Source: a virus. From it: DNA of 20,319 nucleotides. This document shows positions 2,036 to 20,126 of the stretch, piece after piece (positions within the stretch are counted from its first letter, which is position 1; each line of letters starts with the position of its first letter). Made by a program: the position numbers and the translations under genes. The notes beneath the pieces were generated by a model, which saw only the letters and a program-made list of their open reading frames with translations, searched no databases and was not told the origin of the DNA. The stretch is taken from the IMG/VR virus record IMGVR_UViG_3300042987_001852, positions 1 through 20,319 of that record; one strand, 5' to 3'.

Positions 2036-4555
2036 TCAAGCGTGAGCTTTGATGAATGCTGTTGTTTTGTCAACGGGGCCACCGCGTTTGTAACCGTAAG
2101 CCTTGTATTTACGCAAAAGCTCAGTAAGTTCCTCTTGTGTAACGTACTGAGGGATCGTAGCGTTTTCTGCCTTCATTGCCGCAGCTAGATCGCTGCCTCG
2201 ATCAATGGCAAATAAATTCGCGTTTAGTAAGTCTTTTACTTCCGACCAATTGCCGCTGCGCACAAAGTCTTGAACAAATGGAAGAAATTCTTTTTTTATT
2301 GCCTTATTGCCCTCTCCCTTGATTTGAGTAATCATTGCTGGACGACTTTCAATAACGCGATTCATCGCCTCATCGTATGCAATTCGACCTTCCGGGCCTT
2401 GGAGTTTGCTAGACCCAGGCTGAAACCGCTCCATCTCGGCAACGATTGCCTTATTATCCAAAGGTGTGGATATGTCATGTTTTACTTCGATGGTTGCATG
2501 CGACTGTCCTTTTGCGTCGCGCAGTGAATATACCTTAGCTTCACCGCTTTGTATCGCCCCCCAACCTCCCAGGCCGTAAAAGGGGTTTCCTCCCTTTTCC
2601 GGAGGTTCGTAGCCGCGTACCGAATGACCCATGGCATCCGACTCAGCAGCAAACTGCCCAGGTTTATTAAGCTGGATCCAACGATACTTCTGTTCTGGAT
2701 AAGCCTTGTAAAGATCGGCTTTGTTCGTTTCCTCGATGGCAAGCGCTTTTTTATTGTTGATCCGCCAATTATTAATCTTGGCTACACGCTCAACGGCCTG
2801 CGGTACGGTCATTTTCTCAAGGTCTTTGGGCTGTACACGCAACGCATCGGGCAGGTTCGATTGCGGGCTCATGGCGTTGGTTAACTCATCAACAAGATGG
2901 TCAAAGCCTAGCCCAGATGTAATATCCGAATTTAACTTCATGCCATAAACTGGCGTGTCTGGCGCTACTTTTCTCAACCAAGGATTCCTTTCCATCTCAC
3001 TTTTAATTGGAAAGAATACCGCAGCATCATCGGGTTGTATGCTCAGATCTGCAAGCGTCTCCCAGTCTTTGGCGAGATTAGACTTGCCCAGGCCTTCTGG
3101 TGGATATTTGGCACCCTCTCTGTTTAACTTCAACAAACGCATTCGAGCTTCCTCGTACCCACCTAAAGATCTAGGAACGTCTTGATTTTGCGTGTCAAAG
3201 TGCAATATATCTCTTTCCGCCAGCGCCCGAACGGGATCCTCGGGGGTGGCCATTTCGTTCTTGACATACTTCGTAAGCTTGGTGTCAATCCACTTGTTAA
3301 TTGCTGCCGCAGGCTTTAACTCAGCGTAGGCCCTTTCGACCTGAGCCAAGGACTCTGGGCTAAGTCTTGCCATAGCCTCCGGCGTATAAGTCGCATTCAT
3401 TTCCGCGAGTACTTGATCAGCTGGCAGACCACGAGCGCCAGCGGTTCTTTTGAGCGGCTTCAGCGCTTGCTCAGCCGAGAAAAGTCCAGCAAGCCAATTT
3501 CCACCCTTGGGCTTGATGACCCCTGCTCCACCTAGAGCCGCTAGTGCGGTTGCTGCATCCCCGGCCATACCAGCAACCTTAGCGGGCATGACTCCTGAAC
3601 CAACCGCTTGTCCTGTGCGATAGCCTTCGCCTCCAGGAATAATGGGCGTTGCACCAAGCACGCCTCGGGGCATGTCCGCAAATTCTTTAAGCAGCTCTAT
3701 TCCCCGCTGATCTTCGCCATACCCTTTTAACTGCGAAGCCCGCAAGCCTTTAGTAAACCCAGTACGCTGGGGCGGTTGTTTCGAAGCATCGAGCCGATTG
3801 AGCATGCGCTGCGATTCGCTGCGGATCTCTTCGCGCTCGTCAATGACACTAGGAACTTCGTCGGGGTTGGGGGAGCCTTGGGCGAACTTGGCAACAGGAC
3901 GATCCTTTTGACCAATACGTCCTAGATTAATAAGAACATCGCGACCCGTTCCAGGAGGAATCTTTTCTCCTGCGTACTCCCGGATCATGCCGTAAGGCCC
4001 AAATGCACCATAGTCCCCGGTCCGTGCCTCACGCATATCTTGCAACATGGGCGGATTAAAATCATACTTATCGACGACCTGTAGGTTACCTTTAGGATCC
4101 GTCCTATAAGAAAACCGCCCTAGCGTGGTCTGTATATTGCCTAGTGGATCACCCATGGAAAAAAGACTTGGGGTAAAGGACATAGGCATGGGACCATCTT
4201 TGCTCAGCTTTTGAGCTAAGGCAACATAGTCCCCGTAGGTAATCGATCCCTTATCCGATCCTTTAAGTGCAATAAGCTGACGGATAGCGTCCAACTCCTC
4301 GGGCTTAAAGTTCTTCTCAGTAATCGGTGTTTTTACCCCTTGCGCCGTTTCCAAAAGGGTTCGCCCCGATGTTGGAAACCACTCAGGATTGAGCTTTTGA
4401 GCGATGAAATCCACCACACGGTTCATGCCCGTGACTTCCGGGGCCTTGTCCTTGGGTGATGTTTCACGTGAAACATCTCCACCGTTGGATTTTTTTACGA
4501 TAAACTCCTCGGTGCTTGCCTCACCGCCCGCGTTTTTCTTAAGGGGTTTTTTCAT
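2036..4555 (-). CDS. Large virion-associated protein with PcfJ-like C-terminal domain (839 aa)
   Basis: This gene lies between the repeat protein and the portal in the late block, so a virion or ejected internal protein is the best inference. Residues 1-40 are basic/polar and contain D27-S33, encoded by a perfect parS palindrome. Residues about 65-170 hold TTLGRFSYRTDPKGN and DKYDFNP, a pattern I associate with phage structural proteins. Residues about 535-610 contain YGMKLNSDITSGLGFDHLVDEL and PQAVERVAKINNWR. Residues about 625-790 hold MGHSVRGYEPP, then KVYSLRDAKGQSHATIEV, then ITQIKGEGNKAIKKEF. This order resembles the PcfJ-type domain (HCV.GY, I.SLR, TIEV, Q.KG.GN), but the usual Cys after His is Ser here. 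No Shine-Dalgarno site precedes the ATG, which lies 5 nt after the upstream stop, so translation is probably coupled. No enzymatic activity is claimed. Confidence 0.75.
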   Translation of the reverse strand: MKKPLKKNAGGEASTEEFIVKKSNGGDVSRETSPKDKAPEVTGMNRVVDFIAQKLNPEWFPTSGRTLLETAQGVKTPITEKNFKPEELDAIRQLIALKGSDKGSITYGDYVALAQKLSKDGPMPMSFTPSLFSMGDPLGNIQTTLGRFSYRTDPKGNLQVVDKYDFNPPMLQDMREARTGDYGAFGPYGMIREYAGEKIPPGTGRDVLINLGRIGQKDRPVAKFAQGSPNPDEVPSVIDEREEIRSESQRMLNRLDASKQPPQRTGFTKGLRASQLKGYGEDQRGIELLKEFADMPRGVLGATPIIPGGEGYRTGQAVGSGVMPAKVAGMAGDAATALAALGGAGVIKPKGGNWLAGLFSAEQALKPLKRTAGARGLPADQVLAEMNATYTPEAMARLSPESLAQVERAYAELKPAAAINKWIDTKLTKYVKNEMATPEDPVRALAERDILHFDTQNQDVPRSLGGYEEARMRLLKLNREGAKYPPEGLGKSNLAKDWETLADLSIQPDDAAVFFPIKSEMERNPWLRKVAPDTPVYGMKLNSDITSGLGFDHLVDELTNAMSPQSNLPDALRVQPKDLEKMTVPQAVERVAKINNWRINNKKALAIEETNKADLYKAYPEQKYRWIQLNKPGQFAAESDAMGHSVRGYEPPEKGGNPFYGLGGWGAIQSGEAKVYSLRDAKGQSHATIEVKHDISTPLDNKAIVAEMERFQPGSSKLQGPEGRIAYDEAMNRVIESRPAMITQIKGEGNKAIKKEFLPFVQDFVRSGNWSEVKDLLNANLFAIDRGSDLAAAMKAENATIPQYVTQEELTELLRKYKAYGYKRGGPVDKTTAFIKAHA
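4458..4477. promoter_or_regulatory. parS: Perfect parS-like palindrome (ParB centromere site)
   Basis: The 20-bp sequence GATGTTTCACGTGAAACATC is a perfect inverted repeat. Its inner 16 bp (4460-4475) is identical to the canonical parS consensus TGTTTCACGTGAAACA bound by chromosomal ParB in most bacteria. It lies in the coding sequence of the 839-residue gene, about 80 bp after the ATG, and reads D-V-S-R-E-T-S in frame. The chance of a given exact 16-mer in 20 kb is roughly 5 in a million. No ParA or ParB gene is visible here. Identity to parS is seen directly; use of host ParB is inference. Confidence 0.85.
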
Positions 4556-4560
4556 GGATG

Positions 4561-7383
4561 CTATGGTGGGGGTTGGTCGTTACTTGTTCCACCCGTTACG
4601 GTGTCAGTGGCTGTCTTGGTGGTGTCAGTAGCAGGTGCGGCGGCTACAGTGGTACGGTCCGCGACCAAAGCGTCCGCAGCGGCGGCTACCTTACTGGGGT
4701 CAACCGGATCGCCAAAGGCCCCTGCCCGCGCCTGATTCATGAGTCGATAGTACTCCGGCGTGGTAATCTTCTTACCAGCAAGACCTGAAGAAAGGGCAAG
4801 TAATAGCTTCCTTCTTGCCTCAGCGTTCAAGGAACTGGCTGAGCCTGCGGTCGTGTAGGTATTCGTTGCTGCATTGTAATCCGGCTGCTCGCCTTCCCCG
4901 TACTGCACATTCAAGAGCGTACGCGGACGGGATGTCACCACGGGGGGCGTCCAACTTAGCCCACTGCCCGTGGAGCTTTGAATTGAGGCGGCGGGCGCGT
5001 AAGTAAAGGACCGTGTCACAGGGTCCCAGGTCCGTTGCGAACTAGCACGGAACTTTGCATCAACTGCTGGGACGTTGATCGCGGACACGGCTCTTTCTTT
5101 ACTATCCGGCAACTTAATGCCTTCAACAAGCTCATCAAGCGTAGGATAAGGACCAATTGAAGGTGGAAGCGGAGTGAGTGTCGGGGAAAGTGTTTTTGGA
5201 TCAGGGACTTTCTGCTGTGCGTTATAAAGGGATAAGACAAAGTTGTAAATATTCCCTGCTTGCGTAGCCAACGGTGAAAGCGTGCTGTTAGTTGAAGCCC
5301 TGCCTGAAAGATGTATGTACTGGTTTAAGTAATCTTGTAGCAACGATCTTGTTATTGAGGTATCAGCATTTGGCAACCCAAGATACCCTGGGGCTGATTG
5401 GTACTTTACGCTGTTATCCCCGTATGTCGCCATCCGGTCAAATGGGTTGTAGTACGCCCCTAAGTTCTGAGCAGCAAGATAAAGGTCTGCCCCTGTGGCG
5501 TTTGGAGCGCCTGCAATATAATTGTTAAACGCTGTTGTGAACTGGTTAAACGTTGCATTCGGTGCATTAGGGGTTCGATAACTATATCCCCCATAAGTAA
5601 AGGTTTTGGAGAACGGGTCGTAATTAACGCCTAAGTCTGTAGCCCTATTAACGAGTGTTTCGCCCGTCAGATTTTTACCCCCCGTTACAAGACCACCGAC
5701 AATGCCTTGAAACTCACGCTCCGTAGGCGTGGGTGCAGTGGCCGCTGTGTAGGATAAGTCACCTCGTGTAACAGTCTGTGTAAACGGGTTATATGTAGCA
5801 CCAATGCTTGAAGCCGCTTGTGATGCCGTGGTGGCGGATACTCCGGGTGTTGCAGCTAGATACGCATCAACATCGCTTTGAAACTCTTGTTGTGTTACAT
5901 CCGGAAGCGCAGCATTTCTATAAGTAAACCCGCCAAAAGTCACTGTGTCAGTGTAAGGATCAAATGTGCCACCGACACTTGACGCCGCCTCACGGGCTTG
6001 CGTTGCAGTCAGCCCAGGTGTTGATTGCGTATATCGATCGACAAAAGTCCCTAGTTCTTGGTTGCTGGCAATCTTTGGGGCATTGGCCGCTGTATAAGAA
6101 ACATCACCAAACGAAACAGTCTGGTTAAACGGGTTATAGAAGCCTCCTATGCTTGTTGCCGCTTGCGCCGCTTGCGTAGCACTCACCTTAGGGTTGGCTG
6201 TAAGGTAATCGTTGACAATGTACGAAAGCTGGCTTTGTGTAGGACCAGGGGCTTTTGGAGCATCAAAGCTAAACCCACCAATGCTCGTTACGCCTGTAAA
6301 GGGGTCATAGGTACCCCCTACACTTTTTGCTGCGGCTGCGGCTTCTTCTCCCGTGGCATTTGGATTAGCTGCAAGCCAATCCTTCACCGCAGTTTCAACA
6401 GAACTTTGCGTCCAAGGGTTACTGCCCTCTGCAAACCGCTGAACAGGTATCGCGTCTAACATACGCCGAGAGGCAGTAATCTCGCCACCTTGAGCCTTTC
6501 TCACCAAACCAGGAATCGCCGTCCCATAACCCGTGGACTGGTAACCCGTGGCAATAGACCCTGTGGGGTCACTCGCTGCGCCCTGCAATAATGTCCGTCG
6601 AACAGGGCTAATGGTCCGAGGTGCATTGATCCCGGTCATGTCTACCGTCCTTGGTTGAATCATTGGTTGTCCTTGGGCCGTGGCCGGTGCAGCATCTCCC
6701 GTGTACCTACCTGTTACTTGAGCCATCGGAATGGCAGAAGGCATCTGCTCCTGGGACAACGCGGCATACCGCATTCTTGAAGATGGAAGCGAAAAAACCT
6801 GCCGAGAGGCAATACCTCCTTGAGCCATTTTTACAATCCCGTACTTACCTTCAAGGGGAAATGCCCCTTGCCCTGCGCCCGTTGACGGGCTTCGTGCATT
6901 AAAGGCGCTTCCTCCAGGGTAACTAGGGGGAGGCTGGAATGACTGTTGCATGGGCATTTGAAACGATTGCGGCATTTGAAACGATTGCGGCATTTGAAAC
7001 GATTGCGGCATTTGAAACGATTGCGGCATTTGAAACGATTGCGGCATTTGAAACGATTGCGGCATTTGCTGCATTTGCAACATAGGGCTGGCCTGTTGCA
7101 TGAGCACCTGAGGCATGGCCAACGATGCCCGCGTGTTCATTGCCCCGCCAAAAGGAGAAGAAGGAGCTTTAGCCATTGCTGATTGCGTAGGGGCGGAGAC
7201 CATGCCCTGCAACTGCATCATCTCCTGTTCTATTTGCCGACGAGCTGTTGCGTCAGCTATTTGTTGCTCAGCTGTCAAACCTGGACCCCGGTAGTCCATG
7301 GTCATGGCATTTGGTGACGGCATCCGTTCAGGCCTGCTTCCAAAATTATTTAAATAGTCAAAAATATTGTTTGATGTCGTCAT
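4561..7383 (-). CDS. Repeat-rich virion protein, six ~57-residue modules (940 aa)
   Basis: This follows the terminase gene and precedes the 839-residue gene. The ATG at 7383 is preceded by AGGGGA. Residues about 100-145 are Met/Gln-rich and include a perfect FQMPQS hexapeptide tandem. Around residues 184, 294 and 316 are short MAQGG, KAQGG and RFAEGS motifs. Residues about 320-665 hold six degenerate modules of about 57 residues with the pattern (D/N)xYLxxxPxxSATxAxxAAxSIGGxYxPFTxTVxxGxxSYxxxxAP. The C-terminus is Ala/Thr-rich and ends in PPP. There is no signal peptide or clear membrane segment. I do not recognise a family with known function. Position in the late operon and modular architecture suggest a structural, tail or adhesin-like protein, but this is inference. 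Confidence 0.72.
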   Translation of the reverse strand: MTTSNNIFDYLNNFGSRPERMPSPNAMTMDYRGPGLTAEQQIADATARRQIEQEMMQLQGMVSAPTQSAMAKAPSSPFGGAMNTRASLAMPQVLMQQASPMLQMQQMPQSFQMPQSFQMPQSFQMPQSFQMPQSFQMPQSFQMPMQQSFQPPPSYPGGSAFNARSPSTGAGQGAFPLEGKYGIVKMAQGGIASRQVFSLPSSRMRYAALSQEQMPSAIPMAQVTGRYTGDAAPATAQGQPMIQPRTVDMTGINAPRTISPVRRTLLQGAASDPTGSIATGYQSTGYGTAIPGLVRKAQGGEITASRRMLDAIPVQRFAEGSNPWTQSSVETAVKDWLAANPNATGEEAAAAAKSVGGTYDPFTGVTSIGGFSFDAPKAPGPTQSQLSYIVNDYLTANPKVSATQAAQAATSIGGFYNPFNQTVSFGDVSYTAANAPKIASNQELGTFVDRYTQSTPGLTATQAREAASSVGGTFDPYTDTVTFGGFTYRNAALPDVTQQEFQSDVDAYLAATPGVSATTASQAASSIGATYNPFTQTVTRGDLSYTAATAPTPTEREFQGIVGGLVTGGKNLTGETLVNRATDLGVNYDPFSKTFTYGGYSYRTPNAPNATFNQFTTAFNNYIAGAPNATGADLYLAAQNLGAYYNPFDRMATYGDNSVKYQSAPGYLGLPNADTSITRSLLQDYLNQYIHLSGRASTNSTLSPLATQAGNIYNFVLSLYNAQQKVPDPKTLSPTLTPLPPSIGPYPTLDELVEGIKLPDSKERAVSAINVPAVDAKFRASSQRTWDPVTRSFTYAPAASIQSSTGSGLSWTPPVVTSRPRTLLNVQYGEGEQPDYNAATNTYTTAGSASSLNAEARRKLLLALSSGLAGKKITTPEYYRLMNQARAGAFGDPVDPSKVAAAADALVADRTTVAAAPATDTTKTATDTVTGGTSNDQPPP
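5395..6420 (-). repeat. Six-fold protein-level module array inside the 940-aa gene
   Basis: Six consecutive modules of 55-59 codons each begin with a helix-like segment and end with a GG/GD-x-(S/T)Y hairpin-like element. Examples of the core are VGGTYDPFTGVTSIGGFSF, IGGFYNPFNQTVSFGDVSY, VGGTFDPYTDTVTFGGFTY, IGATYNPFTQTVTRGDLSY, LGVNYDPFSKTFTYGGYSY and LGAYYNPFDRMATYGDNSV. A degenerate seventh trace, WDPVTRSFTY, lies further towards the C-terminus. The modules have diverged at nucleotide level, unlike the 18-bp array in the same gene. Confidence 0.85.
6955..7068 (-). repeat. Perfect 18-bp tandem repeat, 6.3 copies
   Basis: The unit CATTTGAAACGATTGCGG (plus strand) is repeated six times without mismatch from 6955 to 7062, followed by six more bases of a seventh copy. 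It is in frame and encodes a repeating FQMPQS hexapeptide. Perfect identity points to recent expansion by slippage or recombination, so copy number may vary between relatives. Confidence 0.97.
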
Positions 7384-7426: not shown

Positions 7427-8914
7427 TTAGTAGTACTCAAACTCAAGCTGCGTGACGGGGTCATCCGCTTCGTCATCATCCAAGGCCACAAAATTCCCCG
7501 CACGAAAACGCATAATCGCTTGCACCGTGCTATCCACAAGATCGTCCGAGTCGCCCTTGGGGAACGCCGCACACTCCTCAATCAACTCTTCAGCCCACTT
7601 CGTCTCCGGGGCCCAGACCATCCCAGACTCAAACACAGGCGCTACTGCATTGGCCCTGGATATCTTATCCTGGCCCGCCCTTCGTCCACCTGGATTGTAC
7701 ATCGTCACAGGAATCCCAACACGCCTTAACTCCTGCTGCAACGTAATCCCCGTTGCCTTGCCCTCAATCAACACATTATCCGGTCGCCAATGATCGTACT
7801 GCGCCTTGGCAACCCGCTTTAACTCCGGAAAGTCCCAGCGGCCTTTTTTAACATCGAGGAGAATAATGGCAGGTCCGTCGTCCGCGCTGGGACGGAATAC
7901 ACCCCAGGTGGTGATTGCTGAAAAGTCAGCTGTCTCTTTTTTGCTGTACGCGGTGTCATAACTCTGGATGATATATTCAACTTGGGGGGTGTAATCATTT
8001 TCCCAAATCCTCCACCATTCACGCTTTAAAATCGCCCCCTCATCATTCGTGGGCTGCTGCTGATACATCGACTGCCACTTCTGCACCGACAAGGTGGCCC
8101 TGACCTTTTGTAACTCATCAAGGCTCCAGTAACTCGGCCAAAGGGGCTTCTCCTCCTCCGTGTTCTCATTCAATATCGCCGGGAACTCCAAAATCTCCCA
8201 CTGATCCGACTTGGGCTCGGCCTGCGCTTTGAGCAAACGCGCCGTCAAATCTTTCATGCCCCATCGGGTCATGACCACCACTACAGCCCCTCCGGGCTGC
8301 AATCGCGACCTCGGCCCCGATGTGTACCACTCCCAAGCGTTGTCAAGCGACAACTCCGACAAAGCATCCTGCTCCGAATGCGGATCGTCAATAATCAAAA
8401 GATCCGCCCCACGCCCCGTCATTGCACCACCAACCCCCACAGCATAGTATTCCCCGCCCCCATTCGTATCCCACCTGCCAGCTGCCTTTGAATCAGGCTT
8501 CAAACTCACCGCCGGAAACAACTCCTTATACGTCTCCTGATCCATCAGGTTCCTAACCTTACGGCCAAAACGCACCGCTAACTCCCCATTGTGCGTCGCT
8601 TGAATGATCTTGGACCGAGGCTCATGGCCCATGGCAAACGCAGGCAAAAGGTAGCTAGCAAATTCCGACTTGGTGTGTCGAGGCGCCATGTTGATAATCA
8701 ACCGCTTTAACTCGCCCCTGACAATCCGGTCAAAAGCATTCGCCATCTTTTGATGATGCGCACTAAATATCGCCTCGGGCCAGACATAACGGGCGAAATC
8801 TATGAAAGAAGCCTTGGCCTTGTCCCGAGCCTCAAGGATCCTGAGCCGTAGCTCAAGCTTCAAGCGTTCTGCTTCAAGGTCCGGGGGTAGGGCCATAGGT
8901 TTTGGAATTTGCAA
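7427..8914 (-). CDS. terL: Terminase large subunit (ATPase + nuclease)
   Basis: This is the motor that pumps DNA into the prohead and cuts the concatemer. The N-terminal ATPase shows a Walker A-type motif MAPRHTKSE (residues 76-84), Walker B LLIIDD (172-177) and the coupling motif MTRW (215-218). The C-terminal RNase H-like nuclease shows SYDTAYSKKETADFSAI with Asp near 320, an acidic LIEGKATG (E384) and GDSDDLVDS (Asp 455-458). At 495 residues it has the usual length. The start is uncertain: 8914 is a TTG with no clear ribosome-binding site, and an ATG six codons in (8896) gives MALPPDLEAERL and is equally possible. It heads the virion block and follows the G-rich non-coding stretch. Confidence 0.95.
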   Translation of the reverse strand: MQIPKPMALPPDLEAERLKLELRLRILEARDKAKASFIDFARYVWPEAIFSAHHQKMANAFDRIVRGELKRLIINMAPRHTKSEFASYLLPAFAMGHEPRSKIIQATHNGELAVRFGRKVRNLMDQETYKELFPAVSLKPDSKAAGRWDTNGGGEYYAVGVGGAMTGRGADLLIIDDPHSEQDALSELSLDNAWEWYTSGPRSRLQPGGAVVVVMTRWGMKDLTARLLKAQAEPKSDQWEILEFPAILNENTEEEKPLWPSYWSLDELQKVRATLSVQKWQSMYQQQPTNDEGAILKREWWRIWENDYTPQVEYIIQSYDTAYSKKETADFSAITTWGVFRPSADDGPAIILLDVKKGRWDFPELKRVAKAQYDHWRPDNVLIEGKATGITLQQELRRVGIPVTMYNPGGRRAGQDKISRANAVAPVFESGMVWAPETKWAEELIEECAAFPKGDSDDLVDSTVQAIMRFRAGNFVALDDDEADDPVTQLEFEYY

Positions 8915-11156: not shown

Positions 11157-11841
11157 GTCCTAGGTCTCCGGCAATGTGATGGCGCAATTTTGAACCCGAG
11201 GGCAATTGCTTAGCAAAGGCCACAATGGCCTTTGCATCGTCCGGCTTGCCAGTTTTTCTTGTCGCATGCCATTGGATCGCAACATGCCCGTTAGCGGCAT
11301 AACATCCGCCCCCATCGTCCAATCCTACTTTGGCCTTACCCGTACCGTGAGCCACAAAGACAATTACATAATCCCGATCGGGACGGGCACATAAGGGCAT
11401 GCCGTTGCCACAATCGTTGCAAGTAAAATTGTCGGACAATTCAGCCGGACAACGGACGAAACGCGTCCCATCAACGTTCAAAGGCCATCGCTCGGCCGTA
11501 TCAACGGGAGCCGCAAAAACTGCCGGGACGCCTAAACTCACGGCATGCTTTGCTTCAGCAATAGAATCGCATGATGCGTTAAAAACCGATTGCCCGGGCT
11601 CCCATCGGGGCAAGCTTTCGGCGGGAAAATGCGAGTAAAGCCAAGCAATGCCGTTATCGGGTACGGCATGCTTTACGGCTTCCATATATTCAGCATCAAT
11701 CAAATCACCCCCATGTTCGGCTTTCGGATTGAGCGCGCAAGTTTTCGGACATGTTGCGAAAGTCTCATGCTCCCCGGCTCGATAAGTTACGGCAATCGGT
11801 CCGGTTTTGCCATTGCTTGATTTTGCTACAGTTTTCAACAT
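11146..11841 (-). CDS. Cys-rich phage/plasmid protein of unknown function (231 aa)
   Basis: The product has a CPKTC pair near residues 31-35, FNASCDS near 90 and GVPAVF near 105. A second cluster follows with RCPAE, CNDCGNG, PLCARPDRDYVIVFVAHG at about 130-170. The spaced Cys pairs suggest a metal-binding site, zinc or an iron-sulphur cluster. The overall order resembles a family found on phages and plasmids (I believe DUF7227, related to mycobacteriophage gp88-like proteins), but this is from memory. The ATG at 11841 has AGAAAGGG upstream and a strong promoter at 11895-11922. It lies next to the DUF932 gene, in the same accessory block. Confidence 0.7.
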   Translation of the reverse strand: MLKTVAKSSNGKTGPIAVTYRAGEHETFATCPKTCALNPKAEHGGDLIDAEYMEAVKHAVPDNGIAWLYSHFPAESLPRWEPGQSVFNASCDSIAEAKHAVSLGVPAVFAAPVDTAERWPLNVDGTRFVRCPAELSDNFTCNDCGNGMPLCARPDRDYVIVFVAHGTGKAKVGLDDGGGCYAANGHVAIQWHATRKTGKPDDAKAIVAFAKQLPSGSKLRHHIAGDLGLAK

Positions 11842-11871
11842 GATTGGATCCCTTTCTGACTTTCTGAATTG

Positions 11872-12352: not shown

Positions 12353-12748
12353 CCCCGACGCGTCCTTTAACGTCCAATGTATCCAGGCCTTAACCGTGAT
12401 CCCTTTCTGAGCGACCTCGACTATCTGCGCCGCCTTATAGGCAAAAACAGTGCTGTTCGCCGATCTGAATACCTCCTTAGGCCAATGTTGGACCAACAGG
12501 TAAACAGGGGCCCCGAGCCGAGCCGCGCGATCCGCAAAAGCCACTTGATGGGGCGAAAGCCTCACCTTTACCCCTTCCCGTACAACCTTCAGTTCAACCA
12601 GGGCTATCTTCCCCCGCTCCATGATCAGCAGGTCTGGCATCCCCAACGGCTGCTTGGCTTCGATCCTTAGCCAGCCTGCGGAGGACTCCGGGGATAGGTG
12701 TATGCGAAGTCCTTTGTATAAGTCCTTTTCTAACTTTCTCTGCACCAT
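12326..12748 (-). CDS. VRR-NUC-like PD-(D/E)XK nuclease (140 aa)
   Basis: Residues 35-54 read LGMPDLLIMERGKIALVELK, with the G-x-PD and E-x-K core of the PD-(D/E)XK superfamily. LSPHQ (64-68) and the hydrophobic strand APVYLLVQ follow, as in VRR-NUC domains. Such stand-alone nucleases in phages may resolve branched DNA or help packaging; the partner here is the small terminase gene just upstream. The ATG at 12748 has GGAG upstream and lies 155 nt inside the small terminase gene. The length fits a single-domain VRR-NUC protein. The nuclease assignment is good; the role in packaging or recombination is inference. Confidence 0.82.
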   Translation of the reverse strand: MVQRKLEKDLYKGLRIHLSPESSAGWLRIEAKQPLGMPDLLIMERGKIALVELKVVREGVKVRLSPHQVAFADRAARLGAPVYLLVQHWPKEVFRSANSTVFAYKAAQIVEVAQKGITVKAWIHWTLKDASGLHEFLKSV

Positions 12749-13430
12749 TCATCTCCTCGATCCACGTTGCTTGGGCCTCGATTGTTTTCTCACGCTCCCC
12801 ATACAGGGTATGGAGCTCCTGAAGCTTCTTCAAAACCTCTTCCTTGCTCATCGAGTCGATCGTGCCAACCCGAATCTCTTTACGCTCCACATAGATCGTC
12901 CCAAGAGCCTGCCCTCGCCGATATTCAGCAGCGACTGCCGCTGAATACGCTCCCGCTGCCAGTGCTTGATCCCTGATCCGTTGCATGTCACGCATGTGCC
13001 GCTCAAACGTGGTCCCGTGCTTAGTTGCCAATTCCGTTCGCAACTCCTGGATCGCGGCCACAATGTGGGGCGACTTGTGCGGATCAGTCAGTCTCCTGCC
13101 CCAATACTCCAGATTGGTCTCTTTATACCCCGCACGGCGAGCCGCCTCTTTCAAAGTCACTTCACCGTCGCCGGTCACGAACTCCTTTACAAAGGTCCAC
13201 TCTTGCTTAGTCAGAACCTTTTTCTTGATCTTCTCCGGCATCGGCGTCGTGATCCGTGATTCAACGACCTCGGGCCGCATCGCAGGAATCTGATCCAAAA
13301 GCGGCTGCTGCTTCGCAATCCCTAACGGCGGCGCAACCTCCCCCGAATCAATCCCAACCGAAACCCCAGCACCAACCCCCGAACCACCCGAATCAACACC
13401 GCCCTCTACATGATCCTTCTGCATACCCAT
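12594..13430 (-). CDS. terS: Terminase small subunit-like protein (278 aa)
   Basis: Residues 1-60 are Gly/Ser/Val-rich and disordered. Residues about 73-115 form a helix-turn-helix (LTKQEWTFVKEFV, LKEAARRAGYKE, YWGRRLTDP), as in small terminases that recognise the packaging site. A helical region with RHMRDMQRIRDQALAAGAYSAAVAAEYRRGQALG and a coiled coil (SKEEVLKKLQELHTLYGEREKTIEAQ) follows, fit for oligomerisation. The last ~50 residues are Arg/Ala/Pro-rich and are read from sequence that also encodes the nuclease N-terminus. The start may be 13430 or the ATG at 13424, which has better spacing to GGAG. It overlaps the upstream gene by 25 nt. Confidence 0.8.
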   Translation of the reverse strand: MGMQKDHVEGGVDSGGSGVGAGVSVGIDSGEVAPPLGIAKQQPLLDQIPAMRPEVVESRITTPMPEKIKKKVLTKQEWTFVKEFVTGDGEVTLKEAARRAGYKETNLEYWGRRLTDPHKSPHIVAAIQELRTELATKHGTTFERHMRDMQRIRDQALAAGAYSAAVAAEYRRGQALGTIYVERKEIRVGTIDSMSKEEVLKKLQELHTLYGEREKTIEAQATWIEEMNGAEKVRKGLIQRTSHTPIPGVLRRLAKDRSQAAVGDARPADHGAGEDSPG

Positions 13431-13666
13431 TCTCCATCTTCACGTTGCCTGACCCAAAACTTCCTTCCCGCATGCCGACTGTAAAACGATTGCAGCGCGG
13501 ATCGTACCCCGTGGGCCTCGGTCCGTGAATAAACAATAAAAAAATCCCCCACAAGCATCTTTTTAAACGGGTATTTTGCCCTCCCAGAAGTCGCTCTTCT
13601 GCCCAATCCCCAATCCCGAGGCGTGATCCCCGGCAACCGAACCTCTTCATCCCTCGCTTTACTCAC
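13406..13666 (-). CDS. Small phage protein of YPFKKM type (86 aa)
   Basis: A GTG start at 13666 has AGAGG about 8 nt upstream. The C-terminal two thirds read KYPFKKMLVGDFFIVYS, VRSALQSFYSRHAGRKFWVRQ and DGEWVCRRI. This is a pattern common in small phage proteins (YPF..M..GD.F, then R...Y....G.KF..R). Function unknown; the compact alpha/beta pattern suggests a small nucleic-acid or protein-binding domain. It opens the small terminase operon, directly downstream of the CATTACG repeat zone, and its 3' end overlaps the small terminase start. Confidence 0.75.
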   Translation of the reverse strand: MSKARDEEVRLPGITPRDWGLGRRATSGRAKYPFKKMLVGDFFIVYSRTEAHGVRSALQSFYSRHAGRKFWVRQREDGEWVCRRIM

Positions 13667-13700
13667 CGTTTATCCTCTCTTTCTAGCCGTTCACTCCAAC

Positions 13701-14166
13701 ACATTACGTCCATCCCGTTTTTCTTTAGTCTAGTAAACTTTTCATTTTTTCATTTTTCATTTTTTTTTTTCAGTCAAAAGTAATGTCATATGACGTAATG
13801 TTGCTAAACACCCTGTAAATAAAGGCTTCCCAGTACGACACTACACATTACGTATATTTATAAACGACGTAAGGTAAACGTTTAACGTAATGTTCGTTTA
13901 TCTTACTCTTATAGATACACTAATGCAATACCCATTACCGTAATGAAAAAAGTACTGTCATATAGGAACCCAATAACTACGGTACTTCTTACAGCATTAC
14001 GCTTATGACACTACTTTATTTAATTCAAAAAAAAAAAATTTCAAACACAGAAAGTTTACCTAATAGGCCTTTCAAAGTAAGCTTTTTTGCCCTCCCCTCA
14101 TCCCACTCTTTTTTAAAGTGAACTTCCTGCTTTTCCCCGCCCTTTAAGTACATACTTCCATTACGC
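13701..14166. promoter_or_regulatory. Cluster of CATTACG/CGTAATG words in AT-rich non-coding DNA
   Basis: The 9-mer ACATTACGT or its complement occurs at 13701-13709, 13793-13801, 13845-13853 and 13885-13893. The 13-bp palindrome CATTACCGTAATG lies at 13933-13945, and GCATTACGC and CATTACGC at 13994-14002 and 14159-14166. Additional repeats are AAAAGTAATGTCATAT (13776-13791), matched at 15 of 16 positions at 13948-13963, GACACTAC twice, the palindrome TAAACGTTTA (13875-13884) and three TTCATTTTT units at 13740-13770. No gene covers 13667-14024. A candidate origin or late-operon operator region. Confidence 0.75.
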
Positions 14167-14312
14167 CCCAAAAGTATGTCTATTGACCGCTCATCCTTCT
14201 TTTTCCACCGTTCGCCCTCCTCCGTAATCCCTGGGCCGTGGTCCTTGGTCCTTGAGCCTTGAAAAACCCCCTTTGAACCATGAAAAAAGCCCCGTGAACT
14301 TCTCCACGGGGC
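14025..14312 (-). pseudogene. Coding-like open stretch without a recognisable start
   Basis: A 96-codon minus frame is open from the TAG at 14315-14313 to a TGA at 14027-14025. It reads like protein: GPGITEEGERWKKKDERS, IDILLGRNGSMYLKGG, EKQEVHFKKEWDEGRAKK, LTLKGLLGKLSVFEI. It has no ATG or GTG near its beginning; the first usable codons are a TTG and an ATG about halfway in. An ATG at 14280 opens a different frame that stops early. It ends in a run of twelve T. It may be a decayed gene, one with a frameshift or an unusual start, or a chance open frame. Confidence 0.3.
14283..14312 (-). terminator. Rho-independent terminator after the 78-aa gene
   Basis: On the minus strand, GCCCCGTG/CACGGGGC (14312-14305 with 14296-14289), an 8-bp stem with an 8-nt loop, is followed by T6. 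It isolates the 14340-14576 gene from the downstream non-coding zone. Confidence 0.9.
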
Positions 14313-14339
14313 CTAAAAAGCGAGAGTTAGCCTCTTGCC

Positions 14340-14576
14340 TCAATGCACTGCCAATCTCCTGTGCCGTTCGCTGACTGCTCTAAGCAGCACGCAGCTCACT
14401 TTTTCCCCAAAGGTCACCTCCCGGATCTCTTCCAGTTCTTCTTCAGAGATCGGTGGCCCGAGGAAGACCAGTTTCTTGCCTCCGGCGAGGTGGATATAGA
14501 CCACCTGGATCACCTCTCCTACATTCAGCATCGCTGCCACTTCTGGACTCAGCTGCATTGCCTCATTCCATTCCAT
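14340..14576 (-). CDS. Small hypothetical protein (78 aa)
   Basis: The ATG at 14576 is preceded by AAGGGGG at good spacing; a GTG one codon earlier is a less likely alternative. The product has a mixed beta/alpha pattern (EVIQVVYIHLAGGKKLVFLGPPISEEELEEIREV). The basic C-terminus ends RHRRLAVH. There is no membrane segment. It is flanked by a terminator on each side, so it either has its own promoter or depends on readthrough from the winged-helix gene. No family recognised. Confidence 0.62.
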   Translation of the reverse strand: MEWNEAMQLSPEVAAMLNVGEVIQVVYIHLAGGKKLVFLGPPISEEELEEIREVTFGEKVSCVLLRAVSERHRRLAVH

Positions 14577-14598
14577 CACAACCCCCTTTAAACGCGTT

Positions 14599-14649: not shown

Positions 14650-14982
14650 TCAGGCCCTCAGGCCCATGTTAAACGGATCATGGAACTTAAACGTAATTCT
14701 GTCTATCTTTTCAGGTTTAGGTTTCAAGTCCACAGCGCTATAGGCATACGCCGCCCCTATTTTCTTTGAGATTGCTGATCGTCGTTGAATCCTCTTACGG
14801 GTGATCTTGCCTTCATCGAGCAGCGGGTCAAGTGAGTTTTTGATTGAGCGTGGGGTCATCTTCAGCTTGTCTGCCAGCTCTTTGAGCGTGATCGGTGTGG
14901 CCCGACCCTGTATGTACTTAAGACACGCTTCGCCTCTGTTGATACGAGCTTGTTTTTGTAACTGTGCTGCACTCATTGCCAT
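14650..14982 (-). CDS. Winged-helix/HTH DNA-binding protein (110 aa)
   Basis: Residues about 30-65 read TPITLKELADKLKMTPRSIKNSLDPLLDEGKITRKRI, a winged helix with an ELA...TPRSI recognition helix and a basic wing. The rest is basic, with a C-terminal KFHDPFNMGL. It is likely a phage transcription regulator. The ATG at 14982 has AAGGA about 11 nt upstream and the gene diverges from the plus-strand metallophosphoesterase promoter, so it may control that promoter, the nearby CATTACG cluster or both. Target assignment is inference. Confidence 0.75.
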   Translation of the reverse strand: MAMSAAQLQKQARINRGEACLKYIQGRATPITLKELADKLKMTPRSIKNSLDPLLDEGKITRKRIQRRSAISKKIGAAYAYSAVDLKPKPEKIDRITFKFHDPFNMGLRA

Positions 14983-14995
14983 AATATGTATGTCC

Positions 14996-15023
14996 TTGAC
15001 TTGTTAAATATATGTGTTATAAG
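14996..15023 (+). promoter_or_regulatory. Sigma-70-like promoter for the plus-strand cassette
   Basis: TTGACT (14996-15001), a 16-nt spacer and TATAAG (15018-15023) are close to consensus. The position shows that an ATG at 15012 lies inside the promoter, so the gene starts at 15054. Confidence 0.75.
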
Positions 15024-15053
15024 CCGCGTGTCTCTACAAATGTTGGAGCGGTC

Positions 15054-16007
15054 ATGCCTAAGCAAATAGTCACTGATGAGGACTTTATCGCAGCGTGGAA
15101 TGAGCTAGGTTCTGCAACCCTTGTGTCTCGAAAACTCGGCCTGACCGAACGCACTGTCATGCACCGGCGCAGCTTAATTGAATCAAAACTAAACATAAGC
15201 TTGCACGCTCATAATGACCAGCGGTTCAACCGACACATTATGCATTCAGAGAACAAGATCCGTTCTATTGCAGATGTTAAAGGGGCCGTTGTTGTGTTTT
15301 CTGATGCACACTTCATGCCCAACGAAACCTCCACTGCTTTCAATGCTCTGATTAAAGTTATAAAAAAGGTAAGACCACAGATCGTGATTGCGAATGGTGA
15401 CATTTTAGATGGCGGTCAGATAAGTAAATACGGGCCGGAAGGCTGGCAAGCTAAGCCCACCTTGAAACAAGAGTTGGAAAGTGTCCAATGGCACATGGAT
15501 CAAATCCATAAAGCTTGCAAGGGGCTTGGAACAATACTTCATAGAACAATTGGTAACCATGATATAAGATTTGATAAAAGGTTGGCGGGTGTTGTTCCTG
15601 AATACCGCGACATCAGCGGCACTAAACTATCAGACCACATACCCGAATGGACGGTAAGCTGGTCAGTCATGGTTAACAACAATACCATGATAAAACATAG
15701 AATGCAGCATTCTGGAATTCATAGCGGTTACAACAATGTTTTGAAGTCGGGCATAAGTTCTGTAACGGGTCATACGCATTTGTTAGAAGTAAGGCCGTGG
15801 GGCGACTATAGAGGACGTAGATACGGCGTATCTACAGGGATGCTTGCTGATCCAAAGAGTCAGGCATTTGACTATACCGAGGACAATCCTTTGCCCTGGT
15901 GTAGTGGATTTGCAATCCTTTCATATCATAATGACGGTCGATTGCTTCCACCTGAGTTGTGTGAGGTAATCGAAGGGACGGCCTATTTTCGTGGTGCTGC
16001 AATCTGA
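15054..16007 (+). CDS. HTH-fused calcineurin-like metallophosphoesterase (317 aa)
   Basis: Residues 8-45 look like a helix-turn-helix (DFIAAWNELGSATLVSRKLG, TERTVMHRR). A metallophosphoesterase core follows: FSDAH (D84, H86), NGD (D116), GNHD (167-170), KHRMQHSG (H215, H219) and GHTH (239-242), the full set of metal ligands of the family. Phage members hydrolyse phosphoesters, but the substrate cannot be read from sequence. The ATG at 15054 has GGAG 7 nt upstream; an in-frame ATG at 15012 is inside the promoter. It is the only large plus-strand gene, and heads a two-gene cassette ended by a terminator at 16213. Confidence 0.88.
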   Translation: MPKQIVTDEDFIAAWNELGSATLVSRKLGLTERTVMHRRSLIESKLNISLHAHNDQRFNRHIMHSENKIRSIADVKGAVVVFSDAHFMPNETSTAFNALIKVIKKVRPQIVIANGDILDGGQISKYGPEGWQAKPTLKQELESVQWHMDQIHKACKGLGTILHRTIGNHDIRFDKRLAGVVPEYRDISGTKLSDHIPEWTVSWSVMVNNNTMIKHRMQHSGIHSGYNNVLKSGISSVTGHTHLLEVRPWGDYRGRRYGVSTGMLADPKSQAFDYTEDNPLPWCSGFAILSYHNDGRLLPPELCEVIEGTAYFRGAAI

Positions 16008-20052: not shown

Positions 20053-20079
20053 AAAAAAAGGGCCCGTGGAGCACGGGCC
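20053..20079 (-). terminator. Rho-independent terminator after the DNA polymerase gene
   Basis: On the minus strand, GGCCCGTG/CACGGGCC (20079-20072 with 20068-20061), 8 bp with a 3-nt loop, is followed by T7. A second small hairpin AGCGTT/AACGCT lies just upstream at 20084-20099. The pair separates the polymerase from the small-gene operon. Confidence 0.9.
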
Positions 20080-20126
20080 AAATAGCGTTGGGAAACGCTC
20101 AAGGAGACTTACACGAACAGCCCTCA

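Follow-up and report, generated by a model that had tools for sequence, protein, structure and literature searches.

An array of short words between inverted-repeat arms upstream of the terminase small subunit gene in phages related to DSL-LC04, a candidate packaging initiation site

Many plasmid replication origins consist of iterons, A/T tracts and IHF sites, and the pac site of phage P1 is a two-sided multi-site array at the terminase genes. In phage lambda, the TerS repeats of cosB are arranged around an IHF site in the order R3-IHF-R2-R1, and packaging requires A-tract bending (PMC4856287). The pac sites of P22 and SPP1 lie within or beside terS, the gene of the small terminase subunit (PMC9611059), and SPP1 pac is two-sided (pacL/pacR), with several sites arrayed at the terminase genes (PMC4856287, PMC9611059). 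Specific binding by the small subunit (TerS) has been hard to demonstrate in P22 and SPP1-type phages (PMC9611059), and TerS recognition of DNA is still disputed for headful phages. A compact, repeated and naturally varied candidate site beside terS would offer many matched TerS-site pairs. Here we describe such a candidate, a conserved non-coding locus in abundant uncultured aquatic phages ('Dishuiviridae'/HTVC023P-type relatives), which the DSL-LC04 annotation shows merely as an intergenic gap.

The window analysed is the whole 20,319-bp stretch of the IMG/VR virus record IMGVR_UViG_3300042987_001852. Among named genomes the nearest is that of DSL-LC04, a metagenomic phage for which 'Dishuiviridae' has been proposed; more distant TerS homologues are found in the cultured pelagiphages HTVC023P and HTVC027P. 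Nearly all window genes lie on the minus strand. Downstream of the element come an 86-aa small gene, terS, a nuclease-like gene and, about 5 kb further, terL (Table 1).

Table 1. Positions of the repeat element, its parts and the surrounding genes in the window
Feature	Position	Strand	Basis or remark
terL, terminase large subunit	7427-8914	-	phrog_38, Terminase_6N/6C; profile match
terS, terminase small subunit, proposed word reader	12594-13430	-	phrog_51; profile match
Small gene, 86 aa, YPF..M.GDFF family	13406-13666	-	phrog_10287; DUF7303 below cut-off
CATTACG word 1, between right arm and small gene	13702-13708	+	ACGTAATG in most window-group contigs
Whole element in terS orientation, outer arm to outer arm, A/T tracts and words inside	13733-14059	-	Window-group alignment, inverted repeats
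Outer arm, terS-proximal, GTAAACTTTTC	13733-13743		Pairs with 14050-14059 over GTAAACTTT/AAAGTTTAC
T11 tract on + (A11 in terS orientation)	13760-13770		At least 11 A in nearly all window-group contigs
Second repeat, copy one, AAAAGTAATGTCATAT	13776-13791	+	Repeat scan
CATTACG word 2	13794-13800	-	Word search
CATTACG word 3	13846-13852	+	Word search
CATTACG word 4	13886-13892	-	Word search
Hyphenated palindrome CATTAC-C-GTAATG holding word 5 (13939, -)	13933-13945		TTTTTTCATTACRGTAATGG in 18 viral contigs and the window
Second repeat, copy two, AAAAGTACTGTCATAT	13948-13963	+	Repeat scan; ATTACGTCTATT site instead in some relatives
Tandem 9-bp word block, degenerate, GTGTCATAA-GCGTAATGC-TGTAAGAAG	13985-14011	-	Holds word 6 (13995-14001, +)
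Second repeat, inverted third copy, TATGACACTACTTTATT	14004-14020	-	Repeat scan
A12 tract on + (T12 in terS orientation, GAAATTTTTTTTTTTT)	14027-14038		Invariant core, window group
Outer arm, distal, GAAAGTTTAC	14050-14059		Window-group alignment
CATTACG word 7, outside arms, least conserved	14159-14165	+	Word search, relatives' alignment
Intrinsic-terminator-like hairpin, ends upstream transcription unit	14287-14314	-	12-bp stem; 1 found vs 1.1 expected in shuffles
79-aa protein	14340-14579	-	Homologues in window group, G002, G004
Winged-helix protein, divergent pair with phosphoesterase	14650-14982	-	Judged not the conserved binder

The word CATTACG/CGTAATG occurs seven times within 13702-14165, in both orientations, and its sole copy elsewhere in the 20,319-bp record searched is at 977 on the minus strand. 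Dinucleotide shuffling of 13661-14300 (2000 shuffles) gave a mean count of 0.055 and a maximum of 2, seven being reached in 0/2000; the biggest cluster per 470 bp in 300 shuffles of the whole window also held 2. The dense cluster that a first-pass annotation had reported from the letters alone is thus real. The 9-mer ACATTACGT has exactly the four identical copies described there, all in the cluster (13701, 13793, 13845 and 13885). The reported palindrome and two-copy second repeat were likewise recovered, the latter with a third, inverted copy, and TAAACGTTTA is present at 13875-13884. The cluster is more structured than first reported. Other 7-mers equally clustered in the window are confined to tandem-repeat or GC-rich low-complexity stretches, at 6.8-7.0 kb and 9.1-10.0 kb. 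A similar density of the word elsewhere had been named beforehand as grounds for abandoning the claim; no comparable cluster exists in the record or in the 50-62 kb relatives, where ACGTAATG clusters nowhere but at the site before terS.

The cluster is also conserved in close relatives, several CATTACG words being found at homologous places in five of them. In an alignment of the 18 contigs recovered with TTTTTTCATTACRGTAATGG, words and A/T tracts are constant and spacers variable. Word columns are 0.879 conserved vs 0.791 elsewhere (12 non-redundant rows), with 11/338 shifted masks equal or better, which lends modest support to word conservation. The tandem 9-bp block is better preserved in L008 (GTGTAATAG-ACGTAATGC-CGTAAGAAG), and counterparts of it can be read in distant relatives. 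The outer arms of the window are short (GTAAACTTT/AAAGTTTAC), with A/T tracts behind them; some window-group members carry one compensated change there (GTGAACTTT/AAAGTTCAC), but the arms of L006 and L009 pair poorly. DSL-LC04 itself (L026, 13013-13656) keeps the inverted repeat and a GGGGTGCGCGCGCG motif, with a single CGTAATG word at the element.

A recurrent plan is found upstream of terS in most of the ~80 related freshwater and marine phage contigs scanned: a long inverted repeat whose arms are ~110-250 bp apart, together with A/T tracts and tandem words of ~9 bp. The inverted-repeat score (15-37, against a shuffle maximum of 12) exceeds every shuffle in 15/15 lineages tested, and the element outscores every other inverted repeat in the entire record of each control genome (G002 and G007). 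Arm sequences are almost wholly different between phages, yet complementarity is retained. The words vary as well: GACGTAAT/GGTGTAAT in most phages, GTGTAAC in L078, GCGCCCA in L073, L089, L092 and L108, and GGTGTATAG in L022. Judging from these comparisons, the layout is retained by relatives even where the sequence letters change. The exact IHF consensus WATCAANNNNTTR lies inside the element, with repeats on both sides, in 37/70 loci, a count that overstates the independent cases because many loci are related; its background frequency is 24 matches in 184 kb (~1 per 7.7 kb). Nearly all of these sites share one strand, their distance from terS is constant within a lineage, and they also accompany the unrelated GCGCCCA words.

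We predict that the element is a multi-site phage initiation site. Like lambda cosB (R3-I1-R2-R1), it would combine short repeats, arranged around an IHF-consensus site in about half of the relatives' loci, with A-tract bending, directly upstream of the small terminase gene. It departs from cosB in its ~9-bp words, which are repeated in tandem and occur in either orientation, and in its long inverted repeat; a unique end comparable to cosN was not seen, and the window phage lacks an exact IHF match. It resembles the P1 and SPP1 pac sites in being a two-sided, multi-site array at the terminase genes, and differs from them in being intergenic and in having covarying arms. Clustered repeats, A/T-rich tracts and, in several relatives, a strand-composition step recall the iteron origins of plasmids and phages, whereas the words are shorter (~9 bp vs the usual 17-22), no initiator gene adjoins, and the element is locked to terS in the main lineage.

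This last point was examined with a 19-base motif from inside the relatives' element (TTTACGGGGTGCGCGCGCG), searched as DNA only. All 23 contigs in which it was found carry terS on the same strand, 70-660 bp downstream. The element is thus within or beside the small terminase gene, as pac and cos sites are; the exceptions, with a different array, are G016 and G018. A TerS of the window family is present in every element-bearing long genome examined. The first-pass annotation had proposed a replication origin or a multi-site operator before the terS operon. Its protein-binding array is supported by word density, by fixed-place conservation in close relatives and by the shared architecture, and its two functional proposals retain the lesser probabilities discussed below; a terminase-loading (pac/cos) site, which it overlooked, fits the terS linkage better. 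We favour, at a little under an even chance, a pac-/cosB-like site on which terminase would be loaded, read by TerS, in a lytic tailed phage related to DSL-LC04. A landing site of the packaging machine is probably the better reading, a replication start being less likely. We favour it because about half of the elements contain the IHF consensus, because lambda cosB exhibits this order and A-tract bending, and because the pac sites of P22 and SPP1 are at terS.

At such a site, TerS oligomers, each with several helix-turn-helix domains, would bind the CATTACG words, with their main contacts at the tandem 9-bp block and, on the opposite side, at the inverted words. Bending in mid-element (at the IHF-consensus site that about half of the relatives have and that is degenerate in the window phage) and at the A/T tracts would fold the flanks together, and the inverted-repeat arms may frame or lock the fold. 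We infer that TerL would then be recruited, the concatemer cut and packaging started. In favour of packaging, the cultured relative HTVC023P has a different array, five copies of CTAGGAA at 11680-11771, upstream of terS at 11866. Several findings count against it. The word class does not map one-to-one onto the TerS recognition helix; G016 and G018 carry a comparable array 7-10 kb from terS, upstream of terL; and the homologous place in the window lacks an exact IHF match, the window's single one-mismatch match being in the right arm. A unique physical end (cos cut) is not indicated either. By our count from the locus table, contig starts fall 300-700 bp upstream of terS in 10 cases vs ~3.4 expected, but contigs stopping in the element do so at many positions, often in homopolymer tracts, with no common end; being so scattered, the starts are read as assembly breaks and not as a fixed genome end.

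Two neighbouring genes were considered as readers of the words and rejected. The winged-helix protein, the binder suggested by the first-pass annotation, is a poor candidate, not being conserved with the element. Its gene is absent from the locus in L009, where the cluster is kept, and its homologue is undetected in most element-bearing long relatives, its occurrence being limited to some window-group members and to G015; in the latter it is paired with a phosphoesterase, and the 40 kb fetched yielded no terS of the window family. The small gene is no better as a required reader. No homologue of it was found before terS in L103-L105 and others (in L103-L105 the element directly abuts terS), and its beta-alpha-beta-beta structure model gave no significant PDB match. 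Its profile gave no match in L194, L195 and L210; it is therefore not a constant partner of the element. It may also be noted that an NrdR-like zinc-ribbon reading frame (1443-1637) replaces the winged-helix gene beside the otherwise conserved element of L009, and that the divergent pair of winged-helix and metallophosphoesterase genes (14650-16007 in the window) is also seen from 15078 onward in L256 (G015).

The main rival to packaging is a replication origin, in which an initiator would bind the words as iterons, the A/T-rich tracts would melt and forks would leave the element. We regard it as a serious alternative, albeit an unlikely one. Among terS-strand genes of 12 long relatives, whose kinship means that they are not independent trials, third-position GC skew steps upward from upstream to downstream of the element in 10/12 and third-position TA skew in 12/12. 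Gene by gene, G002 has its change point at -0.37 kb (log-likelihood gain 98), and G004 has two competing ones, the best at +3.4 kb (gain 78) and the second at -0.11 kb (gain 70). G016 and G018, the two relatives in which such an array is distant from terS, also suit an origin, and in G016 (terS 7 kb away) composition switches at the array, which comes after a primase/helicase gene. However, the element marks the boundary between replication/early and late genes, so that transcription or codon use could give the same skew step. Skew signs are mixed for upstream genes on the opposite strand, change points in G007 and DSL-LC04 are weak and kilobases off, and HTVC023P exhibits no composition step at its array upstream of terS. 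Cumulative GC skew, which the first-pass annotation proposed checking for a minimum, has none at the cluster within the 20,319-bp record, a stretch that is uninformative on its own. The terS linkage in 23/23 contigs is not expected of an origin, nor is there a conserved adjacent candidate for an initiator gene; G016 alone has a primase ahead of its array. Packaging and origin functions could also be combined in one locus.

An enhancer or operator of the late operon, with a phage regulator binding the words upstream of a terS promoter and the bend assisting, appears less likely still. The element does follow the terminator-like hairpin and precede the terS operon in the direction of transcription, and in several relatives visual inspection picks out sigma70-like sequences in the interval from the right arm to the small gene, for example TTGCGT-17-CACAAT for the L041 clade. 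A promoter consensus scan of the window region found none, however, and no regulator gene is conserved beside the element. The words form no second cluster in the window or in the 50-62 kb relatives; a regulon is thus not seen. It is similarly doubtful, and slightly more so, that self-complementarity itself is selected while the inverted-repeat sequence is free, a terminase-loading or replication machine reading extruded or looped DNA together with fast-evolving words. To our knowledge, no initiation site with selected self-complementarity and free arm sequence has been described for tailed phages.

Arms that vary between phages while remaining complementary would also suit a structured RNA (a 5' leader or non-coding RNA) closed by the inverted repeat, but this is very improbable: arm mismatches comprise 14 G.T and 12 A.C, so that neither strand is favoured as RNA, the element has no Rfam match, and an internal hairpin hinted at by pairwise comparison within the window group was discarded, its halves not covarying in the larger alignment. 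Hardly credible is an invertible or mobile segment, which the ~110-250 bp bounded by inverted repeats might recall, the orientation of the internal motif relative to terS being identical in 23/23 contigs, the window group exhibiting no inversion, and the place of the element being constant.

Other features of these genomes deserve mention. Identifying the host via integrated copies was given up, merely two MAG contigs carrying this terS. A sub-threshold Rfam match to Betaproteobacteria_toxic_sRNA at 20054-20109 (minus strand; 35.5 bits, gathering 50, E 0.0017) hints at a possible betaproteobacterial host. The arrays of G016 (43180-43296, L264) and G018 (3223-3503, L266) are iteron arrays with unrelated words (GGTAACT, AGGGCGAT), terS being in the replication region. 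Degenerate tandem repeats of the GGACCACGG/GGATCACGG type occupy 14205-14300 of the window, just upstream of the element; they also occur upstream of the element in many relatives (e.g. L041, L049 and L100) and before terS in HTVC023P. In-frame tandem QSFQMP repeats are found at 6761-7000, within a 940-aa protein encoded at 4561-7383.
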